Source of the DNA: Rhodococcus sp. Leaf247
GTDB taxonomy: Bacteria > Actinomycetota > Actinomycetes > Mycobacteriales > Mycobacteriaceae
Direction of reading: 5' to 3'
Assembly (NCBI RefSeq): GCF_001426185.1
Contig: NZ_LMRP01000001.1
Span: forward strand, 1,838,765 to 1,902,764
Length of the DNA: 64,000 bases
The notes below the pieces were generated by a model that was not told the origin of the DNA, ran no database searches, and saw only the letters and a program-made list of their open reading frames with translations. Each line of letters starts with the position of its first letter. Positions within the stretch are counted from its first letter, which is position 1. Positions 3,469-11,200 of the stretch are shown piece after piece. A program made the translations under genes and the position numbers.

Positions 3469-5277
3469 CTACTTTCGTGTGTCGGAGGTCGTGTGGTCGT
3501 GACCGCTGGCCAGTGTCAGCGCTGCGTTGATGAGCGCCAGATGGGACAGGCCTTGCGGGAAGTTGCCCAGGAACGTCGAGGGTTCGCCCTCGGCGGATCG
3601 GTCGGGGTCGATCATCTCGGCGAAGAGCCCGACGTCGTTGCCGGTCGTGACGAGCCGGTCCATCAGAGCGGAGGCCTCCTCGTCGCGGCCGAGCTTGGCC
3701 AGTGCGCTGACGACCCAGAACGAGCAGGCGACGAAGGTGCCCTCCACCATCCGCATTCCGGAGTAGCGGTAGAGATGATCTCCGGAGCCGAGTTCGTCGC
3801 GAAGAGCGTCCACGGTCCGGGACATACGGTCGTCGTCGACGCACCGACTGCCCGCGTGCAGCAGCACGGATGCATCCAGTTCATCGGTTCCCGGGTACCA
3901 GATGTACGCACCGCGAGACTCGGACCAGCAGTTGTCCGCGATCCACTGCGCGATATGGTCGCGCTCGGTCACCCACCGATCCGCGATACCCGGGATCATG
4001 CCCTGCTCGGAGAGGTGGACGGCGCGATCGAGCGCGTGCCAGCAACCCATCTTCGAGGACGTGTAGTGCTGCTCGGTGGGCAGCTCCCACATGCCGGCAT
4101 CCTTGCGTCGCCAGATGTCGCACGTGGTGTCCGCGATCTGCGCGAGCAGTCGGCCGGTGGGGGCGTCGAGGATGTTGCCCGCGTCGACGTACAGCGACAC
4201 GATGTCGAACAGGTCGCCGAAGATACCCTGCTGGAGCTGCGTGGCCGCCTCGTTGCCGTTGACGACCGGGCCGATGCCGCGCCACCCCGGAACGTCCGGG
4301 TAACTCGACCCCGCGGGAACTTCACCGTCGAATGTGTAGAACACCTGCGTGATCTGCTCGTTGCTGCGGATGATGCGCAGCAGCCACGCGACCGCGGCGT
4401 GCACCTCCTCGCGGAGACCGAAACGGATGAGCGCCTTGATCGTGTAGGCGGCGTCGCGCACCCACGCATAGCGGTAGTCCCAGTTCTTCGCGCCGGCCCA
4501 CCGCTCCGGAAGTGAGGTCGTCGCCGCGGCCGCGATGGCGCCGGACGGGCTGTACAGCAACAACTTCAAGGCGAGCGCGCTGCGATGGACCTCGTCGTGC
4601 CAGGGTCCGTCGTATCGGAATTCTTCGGACCACATCTGCCAGTTGGTGATCGTCCGGTCGATTCCCGCATCGACATCCTCCGGCACCGGGAGATACAGCG
4701 GCTCCACCTCGGTGCCGACCACGGCAACCAGTGACCGGGCACCCACCTCGGTGGTGAATCGCCCACTGATCGAACGGGATCCGAGCTCGACGTCGTCGGC
4801 ATTCATCGTCCGCACACCGAGGCTGACGCCGTCCACCCGCAGTACCGTCCCGTGCACGGTCTCGTACGACCACGGGGACGCGGTCCCCAGGCACGTGCCC
4901 GGCGCCACCGTCCACTCCATGTCGACGCTGCCCTCGACGCCCTCGATGCGTCGGGCGAGCTCGGTCCACGGAAGACGGCCCGCCACTCCGGTATTGAGCG
5001 AATCGGTCACGTTCACGACACCCGAATCCGTGGTGAACGTGGTCACCAGGACGTTCGAGCCGTCCGCGTAGCGACGCGTCGCCGTGAAGTCCGCCGCCGG
5101 CCGCATCGATATGTACCCACCGGTATCGGCATCGAGCAGCGCCGCGAACACCGGTGGCGTGTCGAGGTTGGGTACCGGGAACCAGTCGATACGTCCGTCG
5201 TTCGCGATGAGCGCGACGGTTCGGCCGTCGCCGATCGCGGCGTAGTCCTCGATCGCCGCGTAGTCGTTCTCTCTCAT
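3469..5277 (-). CDS. Glycoside hydrolase family 15 protein (glucoamylase/trehalase-like)
   Basis: 602 residues with the two-part GH15 layout: an N-terminal beta-sandwich starting YAAIEDYAAIGDGRTVALI, then an (alpha/alpha)6 barrel. Visible barrel motifs are WAGAKNWDYRYAWVRDAAY, DAGMWELPTEQHYTSSKM (its Glu matches the general acid of the family) and a later GTDELDASVLLH (Glu in the position of the general base). Actinobacterial GH15 proteins include the mycobacterial trehalase, so hydrolysis of trehalose or an alpha-glucan is plausible but unproven. There is no signal peptide, so it is probably cytoplasmic. The start ATG overlaps the stop of the HAD gene by 4 bp, which implies coupled translation. 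Confidence 0.88.
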   Translation of the reverse strand: MRENDYAAIEDYAAIGDGRTVALIANDGRIDWFPVPNLDTPPVFAALLDADTGGYISMRPAADFTATRRYADGSNVLVTTFTTDSGVVNVTDSLNTGVAGRLPWTELARRIEGVEGSVDMEWTVAPGTCLGTASPWSYETVHGTVLRVDGVSLGVRTMNADDVELGSRSISGRFTTEVGARSLVAVVGTEVEPLYLPVPEDVDAGIDRTITNWQMWSEEFRYDGPWHDEVHRSALALKLLLYSPSGAIAAAATTSLPERWAGAKNWDYRYAWVRDAAYTIKALIRFGLREEVHAAVAWLLRIIRSNEQITQVFYTFDGEVPAGSSYPDVPGWRGIGPVVNGNEAATQLQQGIFGDLFDIVSLYVDAGNILDAPTGRLLAQIADTTCDIWRRKDAGMWELPTEQHYTSSKMGCWHALDRAVHLSEQGMIPGIADRWVTERDHIAQWIADNCWSESRGAYIWYPGTDELDASVLLHAGSRCVDDDRMSRTVDALRDELGSGDHLYRYSGMRMVEGTFVACSFWVVSALAKLGRDEEASALMDRLVTTGNDVGLFAEMIDPDRSAEGEPSTFLGNFPQGLSHLALINAALTLASGHDHTTSDTRK

Positions 5278-5939
5278 CCGAGGCGCGCAACCATGGAACT
5301 GTCGAGGTTCGCCAGTAGATCGGCCGGATCGTCATACACCGCAACGGCTCCCGCATCGATCAACTCGGCGGCCGACACTCCGCCGCTCCGCACACCGATG
5401 CAGGGGACACCGGCGGCCACGGACGCTTCGACGTCCCATACCGAGTCGCCGACGAACACGGCGTGATCAGCGTCGACCCCGGCCTTGTCCAGCGCGATAC
5501 GAACGATGCCCGGCTCCGGTTTCGCCGTCTCCACATCCTCCGACGACGTCAACTCCGAGACGATCTCCTCGACCCCCAGTAGACCGCGAAGGATCGCGAG
5601 TTCGTTCTCCGGAGCCGAGGTGGCCAGAACGACCTGCAGCCCGCGGTCCGCTACCGCGCCGAGCAGATCGAGCGCACCGGGCAGCGGCGACAGCAGGGAG
5701 GACATCTCCTCGTAGTACTGCGTGTGCAGTTCCTTCGCATGCGAGGCAGCGGCCTCGTCCGCGTCGCCGGCCAGCGACGACAGCAGCTTCGCGCCGTCCA
5801 TTCCGATCGAGCGGTGGATACGCCACGAGTCGGCGGCGATCCCCGCATCGGCGAACGCTCGCGCCCATGCGTGGACGTGCGCGTAGTTGGAATCGACGAG
5901 TGTGCCGTCGATGTCGAACAGAACGGCGGGGGAAGTCAC
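5274..5939 (-). CDS. HAD superfamily hydrolase (phosphoglycolate-phosphatase-like)
   Basis: 221 residues, HAD subfamily IA. Motif I is FDIDGTLVD at residues 8-16 (nucleophile Asp9, acid/base Asp11). Motif II lies at ATSAPENE, a Lys follows in VETAKPEPG, and motif IV is FVGDSVWDVEAS. The helical cap between motifs I and II has the size seen in phosphoglycolate phosphatase and beta-phosphoglucomutase-like enzymes. The predicted start is a GTG at 5939. The stop overlaps the GH15 start by 4 bp, so a role with a sugar phosphate is possible. The substrate is not determined by sequence. Confidence 0.85.
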   Translation of the reverse strand: MTSPAVLFDIDGTLVDSNYAHVHAWARAFADAGIAADSWRIHRSIGMDGAKLLSSLAGDADEAAASHAKELHTQYYEEMSSLLSPLPGALDLLGAVADRGLQVVLATSAPENELAILRGLLGVEEIVSELTSSEDVETAKPEPGIVRIALDKAGVDADHAVFVGDSVWDVEASVAAGVPCIGVRSGGVSAAELIDAGAVAVYDDPADLLANLDSSMVARLG

Positions 5940-5976
5940 GCATGGTGGCTACCCGCGGAGGGCCGTGGACAAACGA

Positions 5977-7395
5977 TCAGCCGCGCATCGCGGCTGCGAC
6001 CGTCACCACGTCACCGGCGGTGGTGACCGGCGTCCATAGGCCGTCCATCGTGTTCGCAGCCACACCTACTGCTGTCAGTGCATCCGGATCGAAGGTAAGG
6101 ACAGAGCCGTCGGAACACGCGAAGCTAACGGCGTCGGAGCCGACCGTGCACCGGGTCCCGCCGGACGTCGTGATGGCTGTGACAGCACCCGACCCCGAGA
6201 ACGACGTCACGGCAGGGGGTGTCGTCGTGCTGGTGACAGGCGGTGTCGTCGTGCTGGTGACAGGCGGTGTCGTCGTCTTCGTCGTTGTGGCCTCGAAGGT
6301 CGTGGTGGCATCCTCCGACGTCGTGGTAATCGACGTCGTGGGCGCTGTCGTCGTGGCGGGTTCAGTCGTGGGCGCTGTCGTCGTGGCGGGTTCAGTCGTG
6401 GGCGCAGTCGTCGTAGTCGGTTGTTCCGGGGCCGCGACACGCGCGGCAACGGCAGCGGTGGTCGCGACAGGACCCGTCGCTCCGCTTCCGCACGCCGCGT
6501 CGACGAGAACGAGCGTGAACCTGATGTCCAGCAGAATGTTCCCGAGAACTCCGAGCCGCAGAATCCTGCCGTTCTCCAGCACGAGGCTCGAGCGTGCGGA
6601 CGTCGTCGTGCCGACGACACTGCGGAGAGTCCCCGACACTCCGGGAACGACCACTGTCGATCCGCTCTGAGGGAAGTCGAACGACGTCGTGCCGCCTGCG
6701 GGCGGTACGGCAACGACGCTTCCGCCTCGAACGGAGATCGAGCCGCGGGGGTTCGATGCCGTCACGTTGGCGGCACTCGGAGCGGCTGCGGTGTACGTGG
6801 GACCGGACGACGTCAGGTCACAGGACACGGAGGACGTCACGGGGGACGGAACTGCGACCACGTCCGTCGAACCCAGCCCCAGGAGCGAGAGCAGTGATGC
6901 GTACAGCGTGTAGGAGGAGAGAGTCGCACTCGCGTTCACTCTCTGCGACGGAACCGTGACACACGGCGCAGGAGTCGCAGGTGCCCATCCGTAGGCCGCA
7001 CACGCGGCGCCCGTGATCGGTGTCCCGGCGACTGCGCCTCGCGAGGTCAGCTCGTTGGCCAGACCGAGCACCCCGGCGCTGCTGTAGGGCCCGGCCGTCG
7101 TTCCGGTCGCCGTACCCGGAACCGCCTGCGACCTGGCTGACGACGGTCCCGGCCACGGTGGGTTGGTTCCGCCCCTCAACAGATCGAACGCGACGCCCGA
7201 CGCCGAGGCGACGCGGCCGACTTCCGCGTAGGCGCTTCCGGCATTGGGCCACGACCCGCTCGTCACGGTGGCCGCAGCATGGTCGCGTCCTTGCCAGGCG
7301 GCGTCGGTGGTCTCGGTTCGCAGCACTGTCGACACGATGGTCAGAAGCAGGGCGGCGAGGGCGAGCGCTGCCGGGCATGAGCGATGGGTGGTCAT
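5977..7395 (-). CDS. Exported protein with SipW-type signal peptide and Thr/Pro repeat tract
   Basis: 472 residues. The N-terminus has a hydrophobic segment (LALAALLLTIVSTVLR) followed by TTDAAWQGRDHAAATVTSGSW, the alternate signal-peptide pattern of SipW substrates. The middle is a beta-rich, Ser/Thr/Val-rich domain. Around residues 325-395 lies a low-complexity tract of TTTAPTTEPA and PPVTSTTT units, then a 75-residue C-terminal domain with two Cys. There is no LPXTG motif or C-terminal membrane helix, so attachment to the surface is not explained. The start ATG overlaps the signal peptidase stop by 4 bp, tying expression to that peptidase. I recognise no catalytic domain; an adhesin or fibre-associated surface protein is an inference. 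Confidence 0.75.
   Translation of the reverse strand: MTTHRSCPAALALAALLLTIVSTVLRTETTDAAWQGRDHAAATVTSGSWPNAGSAYAEVGRVASASGVAFDLLRGGTNPPWPGPSSARSQAVPGTATGTTAGPYSSAGVLGLANELTSRGAVAGTPITGAACAAYGWAPATPAPCVTVPSQRVNASATLSSYTLYASLLSLLGLGSTDVVAVPSPVTSSVSCDLTSSGPTYTAAAPSAANVTASNPRGSISVRGGSVVAVPPAGGTTSFDFPQSGSTVVVPGVSGTLRSVVGTTTSARSSLVLENGRILRLGVLGNILLDIRFTLVLVDAACGSGATGPVATTAAVAARVAAPEQPTTTTAPTTEPATTTAPTTEPATTTAPTTSITTTSEDATTTFEATTTKTTTPPVTSTTTPPVTSTTTPPAVTSFSGSGAVTAITTSGGTRCTVGSDAVSFACSDGSVLTFDPDALTAVGVAANTMDGLWTPVTTAGDVVTVAAAMRG
6219..6278. repeat. 24-bp tandem repeat (2 full copies, partial third)
   Basis: Unit GGTGTCGTCGTGCTGGTGAC plus AGGC at 6219-6242 and 6243-6266, with a 12-base partial copy to 6278. 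Read on the minus strand it encodes the repeated PPVTSTTT units of the exported protein. The copies are identical, which suggests recent duplication and possible length variation between strains. Confidence 0.85.
6335..6422. repeat. 30-bp tandem repeat (2 identical copies, diverged third)
   Basis: Units at 6335-6364 and 6365-6394 are identical and a diverged copy runs to about 6422. On the minus strand each unit gives ten residues, TTAPTTEPAT. This is the linker tract of the SipW-type exported protein. Identical long units in a surface-protein linker are typical of slippage-prone, length-variable spacers. Confidence 0.85.
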
Positions 7396-7919
7396 TGCTG
7401 CCGCTTCGGTGACCGTGGCCAGAACATCGCCACGACCAACACGGTGATGCCGATGGTCAGCAGGCCGAGAACGATGGGATTCGAGAACCACACGACGACC
7501 TTCGCGAGGCCGGGTACGGACCAGAGGACCTTGCGCACCTCCCGCACGCTGTAACCCGCCGGGTCCTCGTACTCGTTGGCGTCGCCCTTCAACTCGAGGA
7601 ACGTGTCACCGTCGCGTCCCGGCGACGTCTCCACCACTCGATGCGTGACCGGAAGCTCTCCGACCCGGTCGACGGTCACGACATCCCCGGGAACGACCGA
7701 GTCTGCAGGGACTTCTCGGACGACGGCGAGGGAACCGGTCGGGATGGTCGGCGCCATCGACCCCGTCTTGAACATGATCAACGAGATGTTCATGGTGAAG
7801 GACAGGATCACCAGAACGATGCAGACCACACCGCCGAGTGCGAGAACGTTCAGCACCACGTCACCCGCACGCGACACGGCCGAACGGCGTCGGGGACGGG
7901 CTGCGTGTCGAGTCGACAT
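7392..7919 (-). CDS. Signal peptidase I, SipW/ER-archaeal type
   Basis: 175 residues: short basic N-terminus, membrane helix about 20-43, catalytic domain, second helix about 143-167. The nucleophile is Ser54 in GSMAPTI. The general base is a histidine, His93 in VTHRVVE, rather than the lysine of ordinary bacterial LepB; KGDANEYEDP (Asp113, Asp119) completes the archaeal/ER-type Ser-His-Asp pattern known from Bacillus SipW, which cleaves TasA and TapA. All three neighbours in this operon carry SipW-type signals and are the likely substrates. The gene begins 38 bp after the 220-residue exported protein and overlaps the next one by 4 bp. The window's housekeeping genes do not include a LepB, so this looks like a dedicated processing enzyme. 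Confidence 0.9.
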   Translation of the reverse strand: MSTRHAARPRRRSAVSRAGDVVLNVLALGGVVCIVLVILSFTMNISLIMFKTGSMAPTIPTGSLAVVREVPADSVVPGDVVTVDRVGELPVTHRVVETSPGRDGDTFLELKGDANEYEDPAGYSVREVRKVLWSVPGLAKVVVWFSNPIVLGLLTIGITVLVVAMFWPRSPKRQQ

Positions 7920-7957
7920 GTCACGTGTGCTTTCTGGTGATGCGGAAGAATGGTCGG

Positions 7958-8620
7958 TCACGCGGTACCCGGGAAGGTCCAGGTGGCGGACACAGATTTC
8001 GACGCGGCTGCCGAGCTGGTCCACACCGCGAGAGTGTCCGGCAAAGTCACCCGGAAGCACAGCGGCACAACGGAACCCGCGATACCAGGTGATCCCGCCG
8101 GGAGAATCACGGCGCCGGTAGCCGAATCCGCGGACATCGCGACACCGCCCGTCGAGGAACCGACGACGTACGACGCGGTCGAGGTGAACGCAGCACTGCC
8201 GCAGATCGTCGATCGGATCACCGCGTACTGCAACACCTCTCCCAGACCCGTGCCCGTCGGCGTCGTACCGTCGACAGTCACTGCCACGGTCGGCGAACCG
8301 ACGGCAGCGCGCAAGGAGATCGGGGCGTAGGACGACTCGCCCGGGAGCAGGGGCGCCGCGGGTGTCAGCGAGAGCAGAGCCGGCGCGCTCTGCGGATGCA
8401 TCGAGTACGCGCCTCCGCTCACCGACGATTCGAAACCGAAAGCCTGTGTCGAGAAGGATGTTCCACCCAGGACCTTGTCGGTCCACGATGCTGCGACGTC
8501 GGTAGCCGTCACCGCCGCCACGACGACTCCGCCGACGAGTCCCAGCGCGGCACCGACCCGGATCCGCCGACCGATGTCGGAGATCCGGGCCGGGGCGCTA
8601 CCGGCTGCATGTCGAGACAT
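7958..8620 (-). CDS. Exported protein with SipW-type signal peptide (second of a paralogous pair)
   Basis: 220 residues. The N-terminus is basic, then a hydrophobic segment (VGAALGLVGGVVVAAVTATD) followed by VAASWTDKVLGG, the SipW substrate signature. The mature part is rich in Val, Ser and Thr, predicted all-beta, with two cysteines (STICGSA and VPLCFRVTLP). Layout and C-terminus (PLCF-x-VTLP ... WTF) match the neighbouring 224-residue protein, so the two are paralogs. They resemble the alternate-signal exported family named after R. erythropolis RER_14450, and in general plan TasA/camelysin-type fibre subunits. The gap to the upstream paralog is 22 bp. The fibre role is inference. Confidence 0.8.
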   Translation of the reverse strand: MSRHAAGSAPARISDIGRRIRVGAALGLVGGVVVAAVTATDVAASWTDKVLGGTSFSTQAFGFESSVSGGAYSMHPQSAPALLSLTPAAPLLPGESSYAPISLRAAVGSPTVAVTVDGTTPTGTGLGEVLQYAVIRSTICGSAAFTSTASYVVGSSTGGVAMSADSATGAVILPAGSPGIAGSVVPLCFRVTLPDTLAVWTSSAAASKSVSATWTFPGTA

Positions 8621-8642
8621 GTCGAGATGATCCAGCGATCGA

Positions 8643-9317
8643 TTACGGAGTGGCCGGGACGACCGCCTCGGCCTGGAACTGCCACGTCAGGGTGTTGGTG
8701 GTCTTGCCGGCAACCTGGTCCGCCGTGGCGCTCGCGGGCAGCGTGACCGCGAAGCAGAGCGGGAGAGCAGTGCCGGCCTTGGGGAGAGTAATGGCCTTGG
8801 CAGCACTACCTGTTCCCAGGGTGCTTCCCGCCGCGACGACGCTCGCCCCACCGGTGATCGTTCCTGCGGTGCAGTTGGCGGCCGTGACATTGCTGACCAC
8901 CTGGTAGGTAAGGAAGGACGTCAGCGGTCCCGTCGTCGGAGTCGCACCGACGAGAGTCACCGCGGCGTCGTATGCGCCGCCCGCCGTGGGACCGAGGCCG
9001 ACACGCAGAGCGACGGGGGCATACACCGTCGTGCCGGGGCTCAAGGCCGCGAAACCGGTCGTGTAGTTGAACGTTCCTGCGGTCCCCGTGGTGTTGTACT
9101 CCTGCCACGCGCCGGAGCCCGCGGCCGAGAAGTCACCCTGGACGTTCCAGTTCTCGGCTGTGAACTGGGCCTGTCCGAACACGTTGTCGGTCCATGCCGC
9201 CAGGGTGACCGCCGCTCCGATGCCCAGAACAAGTCCGCCGGCGAGCAACGCACGAACCTTACGGCGCCGGTCGTCGCGCCGATCCGGTTCCTGATGGTTG
9301 ATGAGATCGGTCGTCAT
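8643..9317 (-). CDS. Exported protein with SipW-type signal peptide (first gene of the SipW operon)
   Basis: 224 residues. The start at 9317 (MTTDLINHQEPD) is chosen because GGGGA lies 6 bases upstream; the frame is open a little further. The signal is KVRALLAGGLVLGIGAAVTL followed by AAWTDNVFGQAQF, the SipW-type signature. The mature domain is all-beta in appearance, with YAPVALRVGLGP, a Cys in NVTAANCTAG and a second in LPLCFAVTLP, the same Cys pair as the downstream paralog. It probably belongs to the RER_14450-type alternate-signal exported family. As first gene it follows a long leader and a Crp-like promoter region. Likely exported and cleaved by the peptidase encoded in the same operon. 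Confidence 0.82.
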   Translation of the reverse strand: MTTDLINHQEPDRRDDRRRKVRALLAGGLVLGIGAAVTLAAWTDNVFGQAQFTAENWNVQGDFSAAGSGAWQEYNTTGTAGTFNYTTGFAALSPGTTVYAPVALRVGLGPTAGGAYDAAVTLVGATPTTGPLTSFLTYQVVSNVTAANCTAGTITGGASVVAAGSTLGTGSAAKAITLPKAGTALPLCFAVTLPASATADQVAGKTTNTLTWQFQAEAVVPATP

Positions 9318-9552
9318 GGCGGTCCCCGTTTCGGCTCGTAGCGCCATTCCTCAATGGCTGCGAGCGAACTGTAGAACCATTACTCGGCTTTCACATACCG
9401 AACGTTCCGCCTTTCTTGCCGTCCGACTATCGGTACCGGCCGTCACACGAACCGGCAGAGGTCGGCGCTCACAGGAAACCGTCGCGCACACGTCGACCGG
9501 CCACGATCCGCCGATCGATCAACGGTTGTGACTGCAAAACAGCGAATCGGAC

Positions 9553-9593
9553 ATAATACGCTCGGCTGCTCCTCAAACGTGATTTGTGTCACA
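9553..9593 (-). promoter_or_regulatory. Predicted Crp/GlxR-like site and -10 box upstream of the SipW operon
   Basis: At 9578-9593 the sequence reads CGTGA-TTTGTG-TCACA, nine of ten bases of the Crp consensus TGTGA-N6-TCACA. On the minus strand a TATTAT box lies at 9553-9558, placing the Crp-like site over the -35 position, as at class II activated promoters. Transcription from here would give a leader of roughly 220 nt before the first gene. The rest of the 9318-9661 gap shows nothing else clear except a GC-rich inverted sequence at 9608-9650 that may end the catalase transcript. Confidence 0.5.
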
Positions 9594-9661
9594 GTCGCAC
9601 GAACGAACGACGCCCGCCGCACCCGGAAGGGGCGCGACGGGCGGCGTCGATTACATGCGTG

Positions 9662-11200
9662 TCAGACGCGCGCGGCCTCGTCGGCCGGATCGTCCACGGC
9701 ACCTGCACCGGTGGTCGGCGCTGTGTCGCCCTGACCGGCGCGGACACCTTCTTCGACCTTCTTGCCGATCTCAGGATCGACATTGCTCCAGTACTGGAAC
9801 ACGCGCTGCAGCACCTGCTCGGTGACGCCGTTCAGCGCGTGACCGACGATGTTGCCGACGAGACGCTCACGGGCGTCGTCGTCCATGACCTCGCGCACGA
9901 GAGTGCCCGCCTGGACGAAGTCGCCGTCCTCGGGATGCTGTACGTACCCGGTACGCACGAATCGGGGCTCGAAGTCCCATGCGCCGTCGTCGCCGTATGC
10001 GTTGGAGTCCGCAGCGGGACCACCGTACGAGTTCGGGGCGTAGACCGGCGTGTCCGCGGAGTTGTAATGGATGTTCATCGCACCCTCCTTGGAGTACGAA
10101 TTGATCTCCGCCTTGGCGCGATTGACCGGCAACTGCGCGTAATTGGTGCCGATGCGGTACCGGTGCGCGTCCGCGTAACTGAAGAGGCGACCGAGCAACA
10201 TCTTGTCCGGGCTGGCGCCGATTCCGGGAACGAGGTTGGACGGTTCGAACGAGCTCTGCTCGATCTGCGCGTGGAAGTTCTCCGGGTTCTTGTTCAAGGT
10301 CATGGTGCCGACCTCGATCAACGGGTAGTCCTTCTGCGACCAGACCTTGGTCAGATCGAACGGGTTGTAGCGGTACGTCTCGGCCTCGTCGTACGGCATG
10401 ATCTGGACCTTGACGGTCCAGCTGGGGAAGTCCCCGTTGCGGATCGAGCCGAACAGATCCTGACGATGGTGGTCCGGCGACGTGCCCGCCAGCTCGTCCG
10501 CCTTGTCCTGCGTCAGGTAGTCGATTCCCTGATCGGTCTTGAAGTGGAACTTCACCCACGACTTCGTGCCGTCTGCGGCGATGAACTGGTAGGTGTGCGA
10601 GCCGAATCCGTCCATGTGGCGGAACGACTTCGGGATCCCGCGGTCTCCCATGAGCCAGGTCACCTGGTGCGCCGACTCGGGAGAGAGCGTCCAGAAGTCC
10701 CACTGCATGTTGTTGTCACGCAGGCCGGAGTCGGGCATCCGCTTCTGGCTGCGGATGAAGTCCTGGAACTTGAGCGGATCCCGTACGAAGAACACCGGCG
10801 TGTTGTTGCCGACCATGTCCCAGTTGCCCTCGGTGGTGTAGAACTTCAGCGAGAAACCGCGAGGGTCACGCCAGGTGTCGGGGCTGCCCTGCTCGCCCGC
10901 GACGGTCGAGAAACGAGCCAGCATCTCGGTCTTCGTGCCGGGCTGGAACACTGCGGCCCGCGTGTACTTCGAGATGTCGCCGGTGACCTCGAACGTTCCG
11001 AAAGCTCCCGCACCCTTGGCGTGCACGACGCGCTCCGGAACCCGCTCACGGTTGAACTGGGCCATCTTCTCGATCAGGTAGTGATCCTGCAGAAGGATGG
11101 GGCCCTGGGCCCCTGCGGTCAGCGAGTGCTCGTCGCTGGCGACCGGAATACCGGCGTTGTTCGTCGTGGTCTTGGCGGTGGGGGTGTCGGGTCGAGTCAT
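9662..11200 (-). CDS. katA: Catalase (monofunctional heme, small subunit type)
   Basis: 512 residues, typical small-subunit heme catalase that disproportionates hydrogen peroxide. The distal His60 is in [12 protein letters not shown], the distal Asn in [14 protein letters not shown], and the proximal heme-ligand Tyr in [14 protein letters not shown]. The chosen ATG at 11200 ([10 protein letters not shown]) has AGGAGG 11 bases upstream; the frame extends 12 codons further without a better site. The C-terminal tail is short and acidic and lacks the flavodoxin-like domain of large catalases. No OxyR or FurA regulator is adjacent. The gene symbol is used generically; which rhodococcal catalase paralog this is cannot be told here. 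Confidence 0.95.

Follow-up and report, generated by a model that had tools for sequence, protein, structure and literature searches.

What do four tightly packed genes of unassigned purpose make for an actinobacterial cell such as Rhodococcus sp. Leaf247? The genes lie within a 64,000-nucleotide (nt) stretch of contig NZ_LMRP01000001.1 (positions 1,838,765 to 1,902,764; hereafter the window, numbered from its first letter) in a genome of 4.53 Mb. An original prediction, made from the letters of the window, saw in them a SipW-type export system in which a dedicated signal peptidase would process three exported proteins and, following the logic of SipW and TasA in Bacillus, give a fibre with two subunit types plus a large partner. 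We consider it probable that the operon encodes a TasA-type, sortase-free, donor-strand-assembled fibre, with A and B as subunits, P as their maturase and R as initiator or anchor. The elements on which this reading draws are as follows.

8643–9317, minus strand: A, exported protein of 224 amino acids (aa) with a SipW-type signal, likely the major fibre subunit
7958–8620, minus strand: B, paralog of A, 220 aa, with an ASW-type signal, likely a second fibre subunit
7392–7919, minus strand: P, archaeal/endoplasmic reticulum-type Ser-His(-Asp) signal peptidase, 175 aa
5977–7395, minus strand: R, 472 aa, with an AAW-type signal, likely initiator/anchor
6208–6477, minus strand: Thr/Pro-rich linker of R, with tandem repeats (Tandem Repeats Finder, TRF) and predicted disorder

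The four genes form one minus-strand cluster in the order A-B-P-R, and the predicted gene sizes and spacings (22 bp, 38 bp and a 4-bp overlap) proved exact when the window was re-checked. The signals end in AAW in A (residues 40–42), ASW in B (44–46) and AAW in R (32–34), so that the predicted motif stands for all three proteins of the window, but its Trp is missing from B and R of two other genomes of the genus (G001 and G002).

Proposed subunits A and B

The two small exported proteins are indeed paralogous, A and B sharing 35% identity over 213 columns (E 2e-16). A scores 25.9 bits against TIGR04088, the NCBIfam family of SipW-dependent signal proteins (cut-off 19), and all 76 members of alignment A1 match this family at E<=0.01. 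Neither B nor R matches TIGR04088, searches of NCBIfam and Pfam at E<=1 gave no family for B, and at the same threshold the Pfam camelysin family PF12389 matches neither A nor B. Among the named homologs of A, the nearest belongs to Rhodococcus sp. BP-332 (86%).

Single-sequence and profile searches gave no link from A to solved structures. The AlphaFold2 model of A (pLDDT, the predicted local distance difference test score, 83.7) was compared with the PDB by Foldseek; the comparison with TasA that the original prediction had proposed placed the TasA fibre (8aur_A) first, at E 1.2e-4, with two archaeal filaments next. The best fold matches include the bundling pili 7ueg, the 0406 filament 7pnb and the Pyrodictium cannulae 9h8b, which are folded like A but are archaeal. 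The prediction for A is thus a beta-sandwich like that of TasA, with residues 41–59 as a donor-strand segment at the N-terminus. The mature N-terminus of A aligns with the TasA donor strand ungapped, and the A family scores 11.5 bits at the TasA register, a value reached by none of 100,000 shuffles; at that register B is weak, 1,477 of 100,000 shuffles being as good.

Fold and register of A together support the reading of the operon as a fibre system. They also bear on the alternative that A and B are non-polymerising surface proteins, monomeric adhesins or coat proteins matured by P, whose likeness to TasA reflects a shared jelly-roll and nothing further. We regard this as unlikely, given that the three best Foldseek matches of A are all extracellular filaments, TasA first, and that A bears the TasA donor-strand segment in ungapped register. 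A sortase-assembled pilus was rejected as a candidate, since no LP.TG motif was found in A, B or R in a search that left variant motifs aside.

Our current working model of the TasA-type fibre is that A, B and R would be exported by their special signal peptide, and that P would cut the signal just before a W-x-D motif and so free the N-terminal donor strand. The strand of one A (or B) would then occupy the groove of the beta-sandwich that follows, so that A would build a fibre in which B may be a second or minor subunit. R, whose similar N-terminal segment is followed by a beta-rich domain of another kind and by a Thr/Pro-rich linker that perhaps spans the wall, would donate the first strand and keep the fibre attached to the envelope, which is what TapA and CapP do in Bacillus.

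The peptidase and its neighbours

The predicted Ser-His signal peptidase is borne out by a score of 61 bits against TIGR02228, the archaeal-type signal peptidase I (cut-off 51.85), and by Ser54, His93 and Asp113, each of which faces the same residue in human SEC11C (E 6.8e-6) and is unchanged, as judged by eye, across 12 aligned orthologs. P falls short of the Bacillus SipW equivalog NF046067 (37.8 bits against a cut-off of 190).

The relatives of P bear indirectly on whether it serves only its own operon. A scan of the named genomes with P as query gave 118 relatives, the best 80 of which were kept; these loci share ancestry, with one Mycetocola stretch represented twice, and the counts are not independent events. 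All 80 have an A/B-family frame upstream and on the same strand (within 500 nt in 78), 62 have two or more such frames, and the R profile matches in 22. An open reading frame with a hydrophobic start directly follows P in 75 of the 77 loci with enough downstream sequence. The motif A-(x)-[WF] occurs in 63 of 77 genes after P; among other frames with a hydrophobic start it occurs in 68 of 241. The first count is a maximum, since motif frames took precedence where several qualified and six of the 63 read P-A-W, perhaps an ordinary signal end, and many of the control frames are surely spurious. Among these 63 genes, the start of 42 is 4 nt inside the stop of P; 38 encode 144–220 aa and 25 encode 420–606 aa. 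The general module seems to consist of one or more subunit genes, the peptidase and a coupled third substrate, of which the long R is one form. In two loci (L097 and L098), on a contig labelled Kitasatospora arboriphila and in Williamsia muralis, the gene after P begins with the same 52 residues; the former contig is perhaps mislabelled or from a contaminated assembly.

P could instead be a second, semi-general signal peptidase in an operon that merely groups exported proteins with unrelated roles, and the two further peptidases of the same class encoded elsewhere in the genome would fit such a view. We hold it to be very improbable, in view of the A/B-family frame beside every kept relative, the 90% conservation of the signal core, and a general-type signal peptidase encoded elsewhere in the same genome. 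We infer that P is the dedicated maturase of the operon substrates, for which the genomic linkage is indirect evidence.

Conservation of the operon

Among 37 genomes of the genus, the window's included, 33 carry a P-like peptidase of some kind and 12 a window-type ortholog (at least 66% identity); A is present in the same 12. The original prediction had suggested a search for the same gene order across Rhodococcus, and A-B-P-R is kept in all 12, again counting the window's. Outside the genus, 17 family loci were fetched, and nine genomes among them, from three other genera, show this order too. With start codons chosen by script for nearness to the window genes and, for R, for overlap with P, the A-B gap ranges from −8 to 24 bp and the B-P gap from −4 to 38 bp across the 12 loci, and in every one R has a start codon (ATG, GTG or TTG) that overlaps the end of P, 4 or 1 nt inside its stop. 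The ratio of non-synonymous to synonymous substitution (dN/dS) was 0.05–0.43 in 28 of 32 comparisons (eight genome pairs by four genes), synonymous change being zero or saturated in the other four; for B it was 0.10–0.43, with a mean of 0.24. More widely, the A profile matches 68 of 151 family genomes and 23 of 296 class genomes. One locus (L089, in G079) has six A-family frames around a single P, an expansion of subunits.

In the window a catalase gene lies upstream of the operon and genes for a HAD phosphatase and a GH15 protein lie downstream, and this site is common to five of the 12 operon-bearing genomes of the genus. In G005, all that is left between the catalase and HAD genes is the 3' end of R (L086:4802–5107), and this remnant is a deletion scar. 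Since the operon has been deleted there from the same flanks, at a site shared by five of the 12, it behaves as a self-contained accessory unit. Membership in the operon was rejected for the HAD and GH15 genes, as both stay beside the catalase gene in G005.

The large partner R and the peptidase fusions

R comprises a signal (residues 1–33), a beta-rich domain (about 34–306), the Thr/Pro-rich linker (about 307–396) and a C-terminal domain with two Cys (about 397–472). It had been described as a repeat protein; tandem repeats are present (TRF, 6213–6276 and 6319–6414) but are confined to the linker. The model of R is poor (pLDDT 55; about 78–90 in the C-terminal domain and below 50 for residues 306–392), and a fold search with it gave no usable match, the absence of TasA from that list excluding nothing. 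R has no NCBIfam match near a cut-off, and its homologs are scarce: four proteins by word search and eight by profile, the window's R included in both counts. A six-frame search with the R profile matched 15 of 151 family genomes, in five of 31 genera, among them G005 with its remnant and G066 with a fusion. At the expected donor-strand register of its N-terminal segment, 169 of 100,000 shuffles were as good, and another register scores higher.

The conserved overlap makes it likely that P and R are translationally coupled. A second cluster in the same genome, S1-S2-P2-S3-PR (L008:6031–9825; C2:342–346 kb), contains two more peptidases. Its S1 scores 157.9 bits against TIGR04089 (cut-off 60), and S3 reaches 21.3 bits against PF12389, below the cut-off of 22.5. 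PR is a single frame of 506 residues. Behind its peptidase part, which is 35% identical to P, come another hydrophobic stretch resembling a signal, one more domain, a Thr/Pro linker and lastly a C-terminal domain, and this is the layout of R. Sequence similarity between the exported part of PR and the window R was undetectable. In G066 (L085:4385–6007), the C-terminal half of a 540-residue peptidase fusion does match the R profile (domain E 4.9e-24). A peptidase-bearing frame of at least 503 codons occurs in 11 of 12 examined loci of the second-cluster kind, 29 of the 37 genus genomes have one or more peptidase matches outside the window type, and in G010 and G018 both clusters stand side by side. 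Overlap of P and R in one cluster and fusion in the other suggest that the peptidase and its large partner act together.

By analogy, R is most likely the fibre initiator or anchor, because of its coupling with P, the fusion, the linker and a weak N-terminal resemblance, read alongside a poor model. It is also possible, if doubtful, that the fibre is real and R is a tip adhesin or an independent surface protein, which is compatible with the roles proposed for A, B and P. The mean dN/dS of R (about 0.29; single pairs 0.13–0.38) is the highest of the four genes, the gene after P is short in many other actinobacteria (the 38 of 63 above), and the donor-strand register of R is not the best in its profile, all of which would favour this view. 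Against this stand the stop-start overlap with P in 12 of 12 loci, the fusion of an R-like part to the peptidase in G066, and a linker and C-terminal domain that recall the disordered anchoring half of CapP (PMC13082335).

Leader and flanking elements

9343–9358, minus strand: inverted repeat GCCATT-N4-AATGGC, placed in the leader some 25 nt ahead of the start codon of A
9579–9593, minus strand: palindrome TGTGA-N6-TCAC, lying upstream of A by about 260 nt

The inverted repeat is a possible hairpin or operator, and a similar hairpin occurs in six of 12 leaders (folds judged by eye). The palindrome, which we take to be a CRP/GlxR-like site, may be unrelated to the operon, because a similar site persists in G005, where the operon is lost. 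A terminator-like stem lies at the R end (5978–5996), one of three found where 1.6 were expected. No promoter-like site on the operon strand was seen in a sigma-70 scan, and Rfam gave nothing at gathering threshold within window positions 5000–10000.

Relation to known systems

In B. subtilis the first strand comes from TapA, and tapA and sipW overlap at their stop and start codons (PMC10151520). The Rhodococcus operon shares with B. subtilis tapA-sipW-tasA (PMC9674648, PMC10151520) a SipW-type peptidase next to its substrates, an aromatic-x-Asp donor strand after the signal, a predicted beta-sandwich nearest the fibre form of TasA, and a stop/start overlap of peptidase and assembly-protein genes, here without a sortase motif. 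It differs in that A has no detectable overall sequence similarity to TasA, there are two subunit paralogs, P lies below the SipW equivalog cut-off, the peptidase gene overlaps R, which follows it, while tapA stands before sipW, and R, at 472 aa, has its own linker and C-terminal domain.

In B. cereus, two TasA-type proteins, TasA and CalY, and CapP are all cut by one SipW, and the disordered C-domain of CapP anchors it to the wall (PMC13082335). The proposed Rhodococcus system has in common with this two TasA-type subunits and a partner with a beta-rich N-domain; in Rhodococcus, however, the four genes are tightly clustered and the C-terminal domain of R is folded after the linker, R and CapP being compared by description. 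In C. perfringens, whose sipW-bsaABCRSD operon holds further exported partners, BsaA needs SipW for export, being retained in the cell without it, and outside forms filaments, polymers of which withstand sodium dodecyl sulfate and formic acid (PMC7395162). That operon includes a two-component system, whereas the window operon is without a regulator.

Implications

The NCBIfam families matched by A, S1 and P (TIGR04088, TIGR04089 and TIGR02228, respectively) have names that cover a signal or an enzyme class, and B and R match none. Public annotation names these proteins mostly by signal type, and the evidence of fold, register and gene order turns them into a testable fibre system. We found no report of TasA-type fibres in actinobacteria in the open-licence PubMed Central literature, among the matches listed. 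It is tempting to speculate, at somewhat short of an even chance, that there is a widespread class of actinobacterial donor-strand pili, free of chaperone and sortase, which cross the outer mycolate layer in mycolate-bearing genera, and whose assembly is begun by a peptidase coupled to, or in the second cluster fused with, its own substrate-initiator, self-released by cutting of the internal signal. If the fibre reading is true, these actinobacteria would possess a matrix or adhesion fibre, with a possible role in adhesion or biofilm formation, the fused proteins would represent a signal peptidase apparently built into its own client, and the question would arise of how such a fibre passes the mycolate layer.
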